From: an uncultured Clostridia bacterium
GTDB taxonomy: Bacteria > Bacillota > Clostridia > Oscillospirales > Acutalibacteraceae
DNA: 33,334 nt
Direction: 5' to 3'
NCBI GenBank assembly: GCA_944380675.1
Contig: CALWIH010000016.1
Coordinates: 1-33,334 of the forward strand
How positions within the stretch are numbered: position 1 is the stretch's first letter; every line of letters starts with the position of its first letter. Positions 3,756 to 8,327 of this stretch are shown one piece after another. The translations under genes and the position numbers were made by a program. The notes under the pieces were generated by a model. That model saw only the letters and a program-made list of their open reading frames with translations, was not told the DNA's origin and searched no databases.

Positions 3756-5600
3756 GTGAACAAACGGCAGAAGCGGACGCTCGTCCGGATTCTTCTCGCG
3801 GGGGCGCTGTTTATCGCGCTCTGCCTCCTTCCCGCGGAGGGCACTGTGCGCTCCGCGCTCTTTCTTCTCCCCTACCTGCTCGTCGGGTACGACGTGCTGA
3901 AAAAGGCGGCGCTCGGCATCTGGCACCGGGAGCTGTTTGACGAAAGCTTTTTGATGACCGTCGCGACGATCGGCGCGATTCTGCTCGGCCAGTGCGAGGA
4001 GAGCGTCGAGGTCATGCTGTTTTACCAGATCGGCGAGCTGTTCCAGAGCGTGGCCGTCGGCAAGACCCGCAAAAGCATCGCCGCGCTGATGGACATCCGC
4101 CCCGACACGGCGAACGTGGAGCGGGACGGGCAGATCGTTACGGTGGAGCCGGAGCAGGTGCAGCCGGGCGAAGTGCTCGTCGTGCGCCCGGGCGAGCGCG
4201 TCCCGATTGACGGCGTCGTGCTCGAGGGCGTCTCCTCGCTCAACACGAGCGCCCTCACGGGCGAGAGCCTGCCGCGCGACGTCGCCCCGGGAGACGAGGC
4301 GCTCAGCGGCTGCGTGAACATCACGGGCGCGCTGCGGATTCGGGCGGAAAAGCCGTTCGGCGAGTCGACGGTCAGCCGCATTCTCGAGCTGGTGGAGCAT
4401 TCGAGCCTGAAAAAATCGCGGGCCGAGCAGTTCATCACGCGCTTCGCCCGCGTTTACACGCCGGCGGTCTGCGCGGCGGCACTGCTCCTCGCCGTGGTTC
4501 CGCCGCTCTTTCTCGGCGGTTGGGCGGACTGGGTGAGCCGCGCGCTGACGTTCCTCGTCATCAGCTGCCCGTGCGCGCTCGTCATCAGCATCCCGCTCTC
4601 CTTCTTCGGCGGCATCGGCGGCGCGAGCCGGGCGGGCATCCTCGTCAAGGGCGGCACCGACCTTGAAGCGCTGGCGCGGACGAAGACCGTGGTCTTCGAC
4701 AAAACAGGCACCCTGACGAAGGGCGTCTTCGAGGTCTCCTCCGTCCAGCCGGCTCCCGGCTTCTCCGCGCAGCGCGTCCTTGAGCTGGCCGCCCTCGCGG
4801 AAAGCTACTCCAACCACCCCATCAGCCGCAGCCTCCGCGAGGCATACGGGCAAACGCCCGCCCTCGCGCGCGTCTCCGCGGCGGAGGAGCTGGCCGGAAA
4901 GGGCGTCCTCGCGCGGGTCGACGGCAGGGCGGTCCTCGCGGGCAACGCGCGTCTGATGGAGGAAAACGGGATTGCCGCCGTCTCTCCGGCGCTGCCGGGG
5001 ACGGTTGTCTTCGTCGCGGAGGGCGGCGTCTTCGCGGGCAGCATTGTGATCAGCGACCTCGCGAAGCCGACGGCGGCGCAGGCCGTCGCGGCGATGCGGG
5101 AGCAGGGTGTCCGCACCGTGATGCTCACCGGCGACACGGAGAAAACGGCGCAGGCCGTCGGCACGGCGCTCGGCATCGATGAGACGCACGGCTCCCTCCT
5201 TCCGGACGGCAAGGTCGAGCACGTCGAGCGTCTGCTCGACGAAAAGCCGCCGAAAAGCGCGCTCGCCTTCGTCGGAGACGGCATCAACGACGCGCCCGTC
5301 CTCTCGCGGGCCGACGTCGGCATCGCAATGGGCGCGATGGGCAGCGACGCCGCCATCGAGGCCGCGGACGTCGTGCTCATGGACGACGACCCGCTCAAAA
5401 TCGCGCTCGCGATGCGCCTTGCCCGCCGCTGTATGCGGATAGTACGGCAGAACATCGTCCTCGCGCTCGGCGTCAAGGCCGCGTGCCTGCTGCTCGGCGC
5501 GCTCGGCGCGGCAGGGCTGCAGGCGGCCATCTTCGCGGACGTCGGCGTGATGGTGCTCGCCGTGCTCAACGCCATCCGCACGCTGCGCCTGTCGCGGTGA
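3756..5600 (+). CDS. P1B-type ATPase exporting Zn/Cd/Pb (ZntA/CadA-like)
   Basis: A 614-residue heavy-metal ATPase starting at a GTG with a GAGGAGGG ribosome binding site. In order: two N-terminal transmembrane helix pairs (about 8-50 and 64-100), the actuator with TGES (168-171), the metal-binding helix with CPC (271-273), the phosphorylation site DKTGT (Asp315), the nucleotide-binding SNHP motif (His354-Pro355), the hinge GDGIND (507-512), and a last helix with Asp595 in FADVGVMVL. CPC together with that C-terminal Asp is the signature of divalent Zn/Cd/Pb exporters. The N-terminal HMA domain normally fused to this pump is absent and is encoded separately just upstream. The pump ejects excess metal across the cytoplasmic membrane and is the effector of the cassette. 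Confidence 0.93.
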   Translation: MNKRQKRTLVRILLAGALFIALCLLPAEGTVRSALFLLPYLLVGYDVLKKAALGIWHRELFDESFLMTVATIGAILLGQCEESVEVMLFYQIGELFQSVAVGKTRKSIAALMDIRPDTANVERDGQIVTVEPEQVQPGEVLVVRPGERVPIDGVVLEGVSSLNTSALTGESLPRDVAPGDEALSGCVNITGALRIRAEKPFGESTVSRILELVEHSSLKKSRAEQFITRFARVYTPAVCAAALLLAVVPPLFLGGWADWVSRALTFLVISCPCALVISIPLSFFGGIGGASRAGILVKGGTDLEALARTKTVVFDKTGTLTKGVFEVSSVQPAPGFSAQRVLELAALAESYSNHPISRSLREAYGQTPALARVSAAEELAGKGVLARVDGRAVLAGNARLMEENGIAAVSPALPGTVVFVAEGGVFAGSIVISDLAKPTAAQAVAAMREQGVRTVMLTGDTEKTAQAVGTALGIDETHGSLLPDGKVEHVERLLDEKPPKSALAFVGDGINDAPVLSRADVGIAMGAMGSDAAIEAADVVLMDDDPLKIALAMRLARRCMRIVRQNIVLALGVKAACLLLGALGAAGLQAAIFADVGVMVLAVLNAIRTLRLSR

Positions 5601-5668: not shown

Positions 5669-6016
5669 TCAGGACACGACGACATATTCGCGGAGCTTCT
5701 CCACCGTCTTCTCGCCGATGCCGTAGACGTTCACGAGGTCGTCGACCGACTGGAACGGACCGTTCTCCTCGCGGTAATCGAGGATGGCCTGCGCGGTTAC
5801 GGGGCCGACGCCGGGCAGCGTGTCGAGCTGCTCAAGATCCGCGGTGTTGAGGTCGACCGGCCACGCGGGAGAGGAGGAGGCGGGATCGGAGGCGACCGTC
5901 ACGACGACGGGACGCGTCACCTCCGGGACGAAGAACGCCTGATAGGCGAACAGCGCCGCGGCGAGCAGAAGCGCGACGCCGATCAGAATCCGGGTCTGGA
6001 CGGCTTCCTTCTCCAT
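5669..6016 (-). CDS. ComEA-like helix-hairpin-helix protein, membrane anchored
   Basis: A 115-residue protein with one N-terminal transmembrane helix (about 8-30), a short linker, and a C-terminal ComEA-type tandem helix-hairpin-helix DNA-binding domain (VDLNTADLEQLDTLPGVGP, then GIGEKTVEKLREY). ComEA binds incoming DNA outside the membrane during natural transformation. This version lacks the SLBB domain found in longer Gram-positive ComEA proteins. No comEB, comEC or pilus gene is in the window, so a competence role is only inferred. The start was set at the ATG at 6016 because AGGGGGAGA precedes it at proper spacing. It is the last gene of the minus-strand array, 20 bases after the MFS gene. 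Confidence 0.85.
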   Translation of the reverse strand: MEKEAVQTRILIGVALLLAAALFAYQAFFVPEVTRPVVVTVASDPASSSPAWPVDLNTADLEQLDTLPGVGPVTAQAILDYREENGPFQSVDDLVNVYGIGEKTVEKLREYVVVS

Positions 6017-6036
6017 CCTCTCTCCCCCTTTTTCTC

Positions 6037-7338
6037 TCATTTTCCTCCGCGCCCCTGCTCCGTGTACCGGTAGGGGCGCAGGATTCTGCCGAACAGCAGG
6101 CAGACGAGCGTTCCCGCGACGCCGAGCATCAGCATCGTCAGCGCCGCGCCGGAGCCCTTGCCGCTGCCGAACAGCGCCGTCAGCAGACCGTCCGGCACAG
6201 CCGCCTCCATCAGCGGCTCACAGACGCCGTCCACCAGCCAGCCGCCGCACAGAAAGCCGATCGGGATAGTGAAGAACTGCAGCGTGTTGCGGCAGGCGTA
6301 CACCCTCCCCTGCAGCTCCACAGGGATGGTGGAACGTAGAATCACGTCGAGGTTGGCGTTCATCAGCGGCACGAGAATCCAGCCGATCAGCTGGGCGAGA
6401 CACCACCAGAACGGCGTCCGTGCAAAGGCGAGCAGATAGTTTTCCGTGCCGAGCGAAAACAGCATCGTCAGCACAATCACCCGCACGCGGTCCTTCGGCG
6501 CGGGAAGCGCCGCCGCGAGCACGCTGCCGAGCAGCGTCGCAATGCCCGCGCAGGACGTCACCATCCCGAGGACGGTCTCGCCGCCGTTCGCGCGCGGCAG
6601 AATGAGCGCCGGGAGCACCGCGTCAAACGCGGAGGCCACCAGATTCACGGCAGCCAGAAAAAGCATCAGCGCGAGAATCAGCCCGTGCTCCCGCAGATAG
6701 GCGAGACCGGCGCGGACGGAGGACAGAAACGATTCCCGCTCCTCCCTCCGCGGCAGCTCCGGCAGCCGGATGCCGAAAAGCAGCGTACAGAAGGCCGCGG
6801 CAAAGGCGGCAAGGTCAAACAGGATGACCGATTCCATCCCGGCGAGCGTGTAGAGAGCCGTCGCGAGAACGGGATTGAGAATTGTCACGAGCGCGTTGGA
6901 GAACGAGCGCAGGCCGCTCGTCTGCTGATAGCGCTCCGGCGGGATGAGCAGCGTCATCGCGACGTCCCCGGCGGGCTGCTGGATGCTGCCCATCAGCCCG
7001 TTGAGCGCGTTGAGGGCGTACAGCTGCCACGGCGCGAGCAGACCGCCGCGCAGCAGCGCGAGCACCGCGACGGTGCAGCACGCGGCGAACGTGTCGCAGG
7101 CCAACATCACCCTTTTCTTGTCCCAGCGGTCGCTCAAAGCGCCCGCAAAGATGCTCACGCAGACGTACGGGGCGTACGAGCAGACGGAGAGCAGCGCCGT
7201 CTGCAGCGCGGAGCCTGTTTCCTGATAGAGCCAGAGCGTCAGCGCAAAGCTCGTCATCGCGCTGCCGAGCTGCGACAGGGACTGCGTGCTCCAGAGCAGA
7301 AAAAAGGGCCGCAATTCTTTCCATGAATGTTTTATCAT
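6037..7338 (-). CDS. MFS exporter (MFS_3 / Mef-like drug efflux family)
   Basis: A 433-residue major facilitator with about 12 hydrophobic segments. It opens with FFLLWSTQSLSQLGSAMTSF, and the conserved cytoplasmic loop DRWDKKRVM follows helix 2 as the usual MFS loop motif. The overall pattern matches the enterobactin-exporter/macrolide-efflux (MFS_3, Mef-like) branch; the actual substrate cannot be read from sequence. The start was set at the ATG at 7338, preceded by AAAGGAG; the upstream in-frame start at 7371 has no support. A structured leader with a 14-codon ORF precedes it, so expression is probably induced through translation of that leader. It reads on into the comEA-like gene. Confidence 0.87.
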   Translation of the reverse strand: MIKHSWKELRPFFLLWSTQSLSQLGSAMTSFALTLWLYQETGSALQTALLSVCSYAPYVCVSIFAGALSDRWDKKRVMLACDTFAACCTVAVLALLRGGLLAPWQLYALNALNGLMGSIQQPAGDVAMTLLIPPERYQQTSGLRSFSNALVTILNPVLATALYTLAGMESVILFDLAAFAAAFCTLLFGIRLPELPRREERESFLSSVRAGLAYLREHGLILALMLFLAAVNLVASAFDAVLPALILPRANGGETVLGMVTSCAGIATLLGSVLAAALPAPKDRVRVIVLTMLFSLGTENYLLAFARTPFWWCLAQLIGWILVPLMNANLDVILRSTIPVELQGRVYACRNTLQFFTIPIGFLCGGWLVDGVCEPLMEAAVPDGLLTALFGSGKGSGAALTMLMLGVAGTLVCLLFGRILRPYRYTEQGRGGK

Positions 7339-7459
7339 TTCCTTTGCTCCTTTGGATAGTAGTAGTTCCAATCAGCAAAGGATGAGGACTCCGCCTCAGC
7401 CCGGCACACGCCGGGTCAGGGGGTTCCCTCCGTGCAGCGTCCTCAGCCTCTGCACGGAG
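7339..7459 (-). promoter_or_regulatory. Candidate attenuator leader of the MFS gene
   Basis: Read on the minus strand, three kinds of pairing compete. Hairpin A pairs 7450-7459 with 7428-7437 (10 bp, perfect). A longer helix pairs 7439-7453 with 7375-7389 (15 positions, one mismatch, one G-U) and encloses hairpin B (7410-7415 with 7400-7405). A sequestering helix pairs TCCTTTGC (7375-7382) with GCAAAGGA (7340-7347), right before the start codon; a second register of 7 bp covers the AAAGGA Shine-Dalgarno sequence itself. The long helix and the sequestering helix share 7375-7382 and cannot coexist. The long helix and hairpin A share 7450-7453. There is no T-run, so control would be translational rather than by termination. 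Confidence 0.6.
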
Positions 7460-7487
7460 CGCAGACAATGCAAAGCGGATAGCGCAT
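7443..7487 (-). CDS. Putative 14-residue leader peptide upstream of the MFS gene
   Basis: An ATG at 7487, preceded by AAGGGAAGGG five bases upstream, opens a short frame encoding MRYPLCIVCAPCRG and stops at a TGA at 7443-7445. Three of its 14 residues are Cys. Its last four codons and stop overlap the 5' arms of both hairpin A and the longer competing helix, so a ribosome on this ORF would decide which RNA structure forms. Such ORFs are known ahead of resistance genes, including mef/msr-type efflux operons, where drug-induced stalling induces expression. It begins 27 bases after the HAD gene's stop codon. A weak promoter (TTGTCG, 17 bases, TATCCC, at 7521-7549 on the minus strand) may serve it; otherwise it is on the HAD transcript. 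Confidence 0.55.
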   Translation of the reverse strand: MRYPLCIVCAPCRG

Positions 7488-7514
7488 GGCTGCCCTTCCC
7501 TTCTTCTCTCCCGT

Positions 7515-8327
7515 CTAATCGGGATATTTGCTTTCGAGAAATTCGACAAGGTCGGCGAGCGCGCCGCCGCGGCAGTCGCAGACGACGAGCTCCGCCTTTC
7601 TTTGAAGCTCCACCGGCGCGTTCGCCGGGACGACGGCGTGTCCCGCCGCCTCGAGAAGCTCCTCGTCGTTAAAGTAATCGCCCACAGCGTAGACGTTTTC
7701 CATTGGGATGGAAAGCCGCTGCGCCAGCGAGCGGAGCATCGCGCCCTTGTTCGCCTGCTCCGGCAAAATTTCAAGAAAATTCTCGGACGAGAACACAAGG
7801 CGCAGGCCGGGATGCGGCTGAGCGCCCGCGAACCGCATGGCCTCCCGGATGGCTTCCGCCTCCCCGCCGAGGAGGATTTTCAGCCAAGGCTGAAAGCAGG
7901 ATGTCTCCACGCCCTCGGTGAAGGGGTAAATCTCCGGCGTCTTTGTGTTGCCGATGAAGCCGTTCCGGCGAAGAATTCCGACGCAGTCGTCGTAGAAGCA
8001 CTCCATGCCAAGCTCCGGGAAGCGCTGGTACAGGGTATGGACGAGCGGGGCAGCGTTCTCCTTCTCAAGACCGCAGCGCAGCAGCACCTCGCCGCCCGCG
8101 TAATCGTAGAGGAGACAGCCGTTGAGCAAAATCGCCGGGGCGTTCACGGGAAGATCCCCGAGAAAGCGGCTCGCGGAGCCGATGGAGCGGCCCGTCGCGA
8201 GTGTAAAGCGGCCTCCCTTTTCAGCAAAGCGGCGCAGCGCGGCAAGGTTCCGCTCGGGAATGAAGCTTCCCTCCGGCACGAGAGTGCCGTCGATGTCGCT
8301 CGCAATCAGGATGTTTCGCAGGTTCAT
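7515..8327 (-). CDS. Cof-type HAD phosphatase
   Basis: A 270-residue HAD-superfamily hydrolase of the Cof/YbiV group. Motif I is DIDGT (Asp11 nucleophile, Asp13 acid/base), motif II lies in LATGRS (43-48), motif III is Lys194 (QANKG), and motif IV is GDYFND (216-221), with Tyr-Phe in place of the commoner Gly/Ser-x. The 100-residue insert between motifs II and III is the C2 cap that sets substrate choice. Members dephosphorylate sugar phosphates, pyridoxal phosphate or flavin intermediates, and the substrate here is unknown. The ATG overlaps the rluD stop codon by 4 bases (ATGA), so it is translationally coupled to rluD. Confidence 0.87.
   Translation of the reverse strand: MNLRNILIASDIDGTLVPEGSFIPERNLAALRRFAEKGGRFTLATGRSIGSASRFLGDLPVNAPAILLNGCLLYDYAGGEVLLRCGLEKENAAPLVHTLYQRFPELGMECFYDDCVGILRRNGFIGNTKTPEIYPFTEGVETSCFQPWLKILLGGEAEAIREAMRFAGAQPHPGLRLVFSSENFLEILPEQANKGAMLRSLAQRLSIPMENVYAVGDYFNDEELLEAAGHAVVPANAPVELQRKAELVVCDCRGGALADLVEFLESKYPD

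Follow-up and report, generated by a model that had tools for sequence, protein, structure and literature searches.

The questions raised by this locus are how its exporter gene is controlled and what the control responds to. In the window, i.e. the whole 33,334-nt stretch of DNA from an uncultured Clostridia bacterium analysed here, the gene of a 433-amino-acid MFS exporter (6037-7338, minus strand), TIGR00900/Mef-like according to a family search, is separated from a HAD-type hydrolase gene (7515-8327, minus strand) by a leader region for which a preliminary description had claimed a short ORF with a ribosome binding site and three RNA helices. Direct re-reading of the minus strand located each of them. 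The leader ORF MRYPLCIVCAPCRG comprises 14 codons (7487-7443 including the stop; ATG 7487-7485, TGA 7445-7443) and follows a Shine-Dalgarno (SD)-like sequence GGGAAGGG (7493-7500); orthologous leaders and their codon pattern also argue for it. The bases of the helices were confirmed by scripted re-reading. Hairpin A, whose 5' arm lies in window leader codons 10-13, forms 10/10 pairs (7459-7450 with 7437-7428). Helix B joins the leader end and its stop codon, the anti-anti-SD (7453-7439), to a 3' strand (7389-7375) whose 3' part is the anti-SD, with 14/15 pairs and a single C-U mismatch. Helix C pairs the anti-SD TCCTTTGC (7382-7375) at 8/8 positions with GCAAAGGA (7347-7340), which abuts the exporter SD AAGGAG (7347-7352). 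In the predicted minimum-energy fold, A and C form together, and a stem C2 (TTGGA, 7367-7371, with TCCAA, 7352-7356) closes further over AAGGAG. A G+C-rich hairpin (CCCGGC-GTGT-GCCGGG, 7400-7415), seen in the sequence and in the fold, belongs to the spacer between leader and exporter, which is variable among relatives and no conserved part. The region 7320-7505 folded better than 200/200 dinucleotide shuffles (z -3.29); it is mainly because of its conservation in relatives that the element is regarded as more than chance. Elsewhere in the window, a ComEA-like helix-hairpin-helix ORF (5669-6040, minus strand) has a possible start inside the exporter stop (ATGA overlap) and may therefore be translated under the exporter's switch, and a long ORF on the plus strand (3756-5600) resembles by eye a heavy-metal P-type ATPase.

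With the exporter as query, 42 relatives with 57-77% identity by best segment were found in public genomes, and the leader was present in 36 of the 41 with upstream DNA (absent from L027, L031, L040, L042 and L045). Its consensus is M-x-L-C-I-A-x-A-P-C-[K/R]-V-stop, with a length of 12 codons in 66/82 leaders (no start was found for L070, and an inner ATG was picked for L058). These 82 leaders are not a species count, as the identical leader regions of L028/L061, L025/L079 and L046/L075 probably each reflect one genome met twice. A sequence pattern representing the leader end matched in 8/391 genomes of the class, each time immediately upstream of the exporter. When one mismatch was permitted, it matched in 52/346 genomes of one family, several of these inexact matches being chance occurrences inside other genes. 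A covariance model (R1) was built from the leader and hairpin A, with the copy L091, which is linked to a CatA-like acetyltransferase gene, in its training set. It matched in 71/346 genomes of the family at E up to 0.1, with the weak matches mostly as candidates, and, with E limited to 0.01, in 31/391 genomes of the class. Downstream DNA was inspected at every R1 place with E up to 1.1e-4 in both samples, which share some genomes. The 50 places in the family were followed by the exporter in 45 cases (internally shortened in L185, fused at its start in L077), by broken exporter remnants in two, and by a CatA-like gene, an esterase gene and nothing found in one each; the 23 places in the class led to 20 exporters, one remnant and two CatA-like genes. 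A second model (R2), built without the CatA-linked copies, recovered the element at all four CatA-like loci, at the esterase locus L182 and at two loci of CD3324-family proteins, although L218, L219, L226, L182, L221 and L223 had originally been selected with R1. Weak model matches in L191, L192 and L195 belonged to another kind of hairpin, close to GGCA[GA]CAAAGCCG-like DNA, with no exporter.

Neither the window nor the loci of 12 relatives contained a match to an Rfam family (release 15) at gathering threshold, the only sub-threshold match being sR23 (E 1.2), and PADLOC gave no match. In the open literature, no description of the leader appeared in the titles and abstract starts among the matches listed. 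Mobile spread was considered and rejected: exporter matches in the plasmid collection (268 records) were all below 60% identity, and so were those in 23 phage records, the eight listed being Mef-like with 22-24%. The nearest plasmid-labelled matches, with 58% and 51%, came from records of 386 and 368 kb of Subdoligranulum and Monoglobus, both of which carry the element (L066 and L065). One viral-collection contig (L056) had element and exporter.

The preliminary description had made the switch depend on conservation of the leader ORF and its pairing segments in orthologous loci, where both are indeed kept, with compensatory changes. When partners were swapped among 78/82 leaders (66 distinct; L035, L076 and L077 have no ribosome-site anchor and L099 was misplaced), own partners were paired in 239/260 cells for hairpin A, 795/880 for helix B and 175/200 for helix C, and 0/5000 swaps were as good in each case; the partners of stem C2 beat 2000/2000 swaps. 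These swap statistics, like those of the shuffles, leave the effect of common descent in place. In hairpin A, 6/10 pairs have changes on both sides. The most telling cases are two in which whole helices were rebuilt: in L065 the stop region is of another sequence and its partner has changed too, with helix B retaining 13/15 pairs, and in L182 helix B consists of 14 pairs of quite different sequence (GCAAAGTTAAATAG with CTATTTAACTTTGC). In L035 and L077 the upstream regions are shortened, leader and hairpin A lie close to the exporter and helix C is missing, and these copies may be regulated differently from usual.

The behaviour of the helices during leader translation was modelled by setting the leading edge of a ribosome at each base and folding the downstream RNA (79/82 sequences). 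Counting positions along hairpin A (GCTCCATGCA), mean SD accessibility was 0.57-0.58 for an edge between +5 and +7, 0.42 at +3 and 0.48 at +4; edges at +1 or before it gave 0.26-0.30, and those at +8 or beyond gave 0.33-0.37, i.e. a peak one codon wide plus a shoulder. The SD opened by more than 0.1 in 54-55/79 sequences at +5 to +7 (22 at +3, 34 at +4, at most 12 elsewhere), and helix B exceeded 0.5 in 65-68/79 at the same positions. With a leading edge 14-16 nt from the P-site, the modelled stall would place codon 5 in the P-site, and with 11-13 nt codon 6. In the free RNA of the relatives, helix B is already partly formed (mean 0.44, above 0.5 in 36/79). At the peak, about 24/79 sequences still fall short of an opening of 0.1, and in L064, L099, L103 and L091 helix B never exceeds 0.5. 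Among the CatA-linked copies, the same peak was seen in L218 (0.44 to 0.70) and L219 (0.29 to 0.73), and it was weak in L226 and L091; in L182, SD accessibility rose from 0.21 and was 0.76-0.80 across a broader stretch (+5 to about +10). Two natural one-hairpin forms, L189 (genome G084) and L217 (G278), with the leader MINC[SI][VA]YAPCR, carry the ribosome site GGAGG inside the 3' arm of hairpin A itself, and their SD is unpaired at 0.00 in free RNA and at 0.81-0.95 from edge +7 on.

Calculated for the window itself, A plus C is favoured in free RNA (-72.1 vs -68.9 kcal/mol for B) and still ahead with the ribosome at +5 to +7 (-59.7 vs -58.4 kcal/mol); helix B reaches 0.16 at most at these positions, and SD accessibility is flat at 0.53-0.55. 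The window copy is thus a weak example, being modelled as OFF at every ribosome position; it could be leaky, or the energy model could be off by the small margin involved. The switch logic put forward in the preliminary description, with A plus C as OFF and a stall leading to helix B as ON, agrees with how the relatives fold, whereas the modelled swing in the window copy is too small for it.

From the conservation of the leader, the covariation of its helices, the codon pattern at the peptide level and the use of the same element by CatA-like genes, we consider it most likely, with a probability of roughly 0.8, that the element is a drug-inducible translational attenuator, a reading drawn from sequence and folding models. 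We infer that the leader is translated, that ribosomes stall on it in response to an inducer and that expression of the downstream gene is induced. When no drug is present, the leader would be read to its stop or left by ribosomes, so that hairpin A forms; the anti-SD would then pair with the exporter ribosome site (C plus C2), and the exporter would be off, as it is in the model with the leader read to the stop or unread. A drug-bound ribosome would stall near codons 5-7 (12-codon numbering) and cover the 5' arm of hairpin A, which would leave the GCARGG and stop region free to pair with the anti-SD (helix B) and open the exporter ribosome site.

Three other readings of the element as a whole have to be weighed against this attenuator. 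A structured RNA kept for mRNA stability or protein binding, with an incidental ORF, would account for codons 8-12: these are part of hairpin A or helix B, and pairing may explain their conservation. In a set of 67 different codon blocks (12-codon numbering; the pair counts ignore relatedness), codon 5 also shows no synonymous excess (0.16 vs 0.22 random), though it is Ile in 50/67. Outside the helices, however, one-base differences were synonymous in excess at codon 3 (0.86 vs 0.30 random; Leu in 60/67, with all six Leu codons used), codon 4 (0.70 vs 0.15) and codon 6 (0.58 vs 0.32; Ala in 48/67, Val in 12/67), while codons 2 and 7 vary freely, and the distance from start to hairpin is equal in 66/82. 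The leader thus looks to be under selection at the peptide level, judging by its codons, and an incidental ORF is highly improbable. Hardly more probable is transcriptional attenuation of the mef/mel type, with a Rho-independent terminator formed by one of the hairpins. In 29/78 relatives the DNA after helix B is T-rich (5 or more T in 8), but in the window no terminator-like site was found on the minus strand from leader to gene, the median length enclosed by helix B is 33 nt (maximum 133 nt), and the stretch after this helix pairs with the SD flank as C2, beating all swaps. The least probable is sensing of cysteine supply or thiol stress by a stall at the leader Cys codons, a signal that the preliminary description had left open on account of Cys at window codons 6, 9 and 12, and with which Cys10 in 62/67 blocks and Cys4 in 32/67 would agree. 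Cys10, however, is part of hairpin A and is replaced by Arg in 5/67 blocks with the arm still paired; four of these are Cys-free (MRLINASAPRRV type, one clade), the fifth (L071) keeping Cys4, which makes a cysteine signal unlikely as a general function. In addition, codons 5-7, the modelled stall place, are almost never Cys, Cys10 lies past it, and the other clients of the element are drug-type genes or an esterase gene rather than genes of Cys metabolism.

As to the inducer of the preferred attenuator, its clients are the main guide. The element lies ahead of CatA-like acetyltransferase genes in four genomes of three families (L091, L218, L219 and L226), which start 103-110 nt past the start of hairpin A. 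Their products score 209.8-214.0 bits against a CatA cut-off of 270, and that of L219 resembles type III CAT over its full length, with HHAV-DGFH kept. In one genome (L182) the element precedes the gene of a PF00756 esterase. Around the relatives of L091, 30 of the 31 CatA-like loci examined (drawn from 97 places found plus one plasmid match) were without the element: two three-mismatch pattern matches in these 30 were due to chance, one model match had E 0.88, and R2 gave none at E <0.5. A CatA query found no relative in viral contigs. The occurrence ahead of CatA-like and esterase genes points to a phenicol or another peptidyl-transferase drug, and we slightly favour a phenicol, another drug acting at the peptidyl-transferase centre or a natural analogue as inducer. 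Chloramphenicol and linezolid are described to stall best with Ala at minus 1 (PMC8987054). For Ala6 to fit this rule, codon 7 would have to be in the P-site; the model places the stall one or two codons before that, so the drug is assigned from the genes that accompany the element and not from the register. This mismatch would suit a switch of the same kind induced by a macrolide, a lincosamide, another tunnel or peptidyl-transferase-centre drug or general translation stress, which we regard as a serious but somewhat less probable possibility. The nearest named families of the exporter are macrolide exporters (TIGR00900 and Mef models matched, none at its curated cut-off, with Mef(A) below it at E 9.7e-27). 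On the other side stand the four CatA-linked genomes and, for macrolides in particular, a leader consensus without +x+, the macrolide arrest motif. The idea of a broader inducer range also draws on the topAI leader ORF of E. coli, reported to sense several drug classes (PMC12121999). More tentatively, the element might be a portable drug-sensor cassette with its own leader peptide that serves unrelated clostridial resistance genes, with the MFS exporter, CatA-like proteins, the esterase and perhaps CD3324-type proteins as clients; its stall at L-C-I-A, about codon 5-6, would fall outside the Ala-at-minus-1 rule and possibly answer not a clinical phenicol but a compound occurring naturally in the gut.

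Several further loci were observed alongside these clients. A similar hairpin A precedes genes of CD3324-family small proteins in L221 (G349) and L223 (G365), where the leader ORF lies in another reading frame (..LHA[KR].T[IV]) and where, in L221, a 9-pair match of GCAAAGTCT with AGACTTTGC was seen by eye. In L198 (G741, 4633-5235), a CatA-like gene is followed by an overlapping ORF, by eye a small alpha/beta hydrolase, and both perhaps form one operon under the leader. Other CatA-like genes (L119, L120 and L140) are preceded by a short leader of another kind, with LAF at its end in L119 and L120, and then by an apparent hairpin (judged by eye) over the ribosome site, as in classical cat attenuators.

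In attenuators of cat genes the leader is short, the ribosome stalls early and the ribosome site is hidden by a single hairpin. The present element differs in usually having two hairpins plus the long-range helix B and in lying mainly ahead of an MFS exporter, with L189 and L217 as the one-hairpin forms among the copies seen, and its leader presumably differs from those of both cat and ermC. As a point in common with the present element, which also precedes CatA-like genes, cat-86-type attenuators are described to control chloramphenicol acetyltransferase genes at the level of translation (PMC5418344). The phenicol genes cmlA and fexA appear next to cat among those listed under attenuator control, and these two resemble the present case as translational attenuators ahead of exporters (PMC5418344), whereas the 14 families listed for the exporter studied here include no phenicol-exporter model. 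In ermC a leader stall likewise leads to an alternative pairing that frees the ribosome site, as outlined in the same source (PMC5418344); there the gene encodes a methylase, and here the freed segment is largely in the loop of hairpin A. Elements of the mef/mel (msrD) type share a leader ahead of a distantly related MFS exporter, yet they are reported to act by transcriptional attenuation (PMC4335068) and no conserved terminator is present here. The parallel to mef/msr drawn in the preliminary description is therefore weaker than that to cat, because the same leader precedes CatA-like genes and the U tract is not conserved. The present element shows three features expected of translational attenuators: a short leader ORF with a ribosome site, a predicted hiding of the exporter ribosome site by pairing, as suggested by folding and covariation, and a helix B that would exclude the hiding helix, in the window only marginally by calculated energy. 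By these features the element is a putative new family among translational attenuators.

Chloramphenicol resistance has been reported for every library in a set of paediatric stool libraries tested in E. coli, a result called especially surprising by its authors (PMC3827270). A conserved drug-induction sensor would assign such uncharacterised exporters to a substrate class that can be tested, and would point to phenicol-type resistance being held silent until needed in many clostridia. At the same time, the conserved leader would be a ready test of the sequence rule that a drug reads in the nascent chain.
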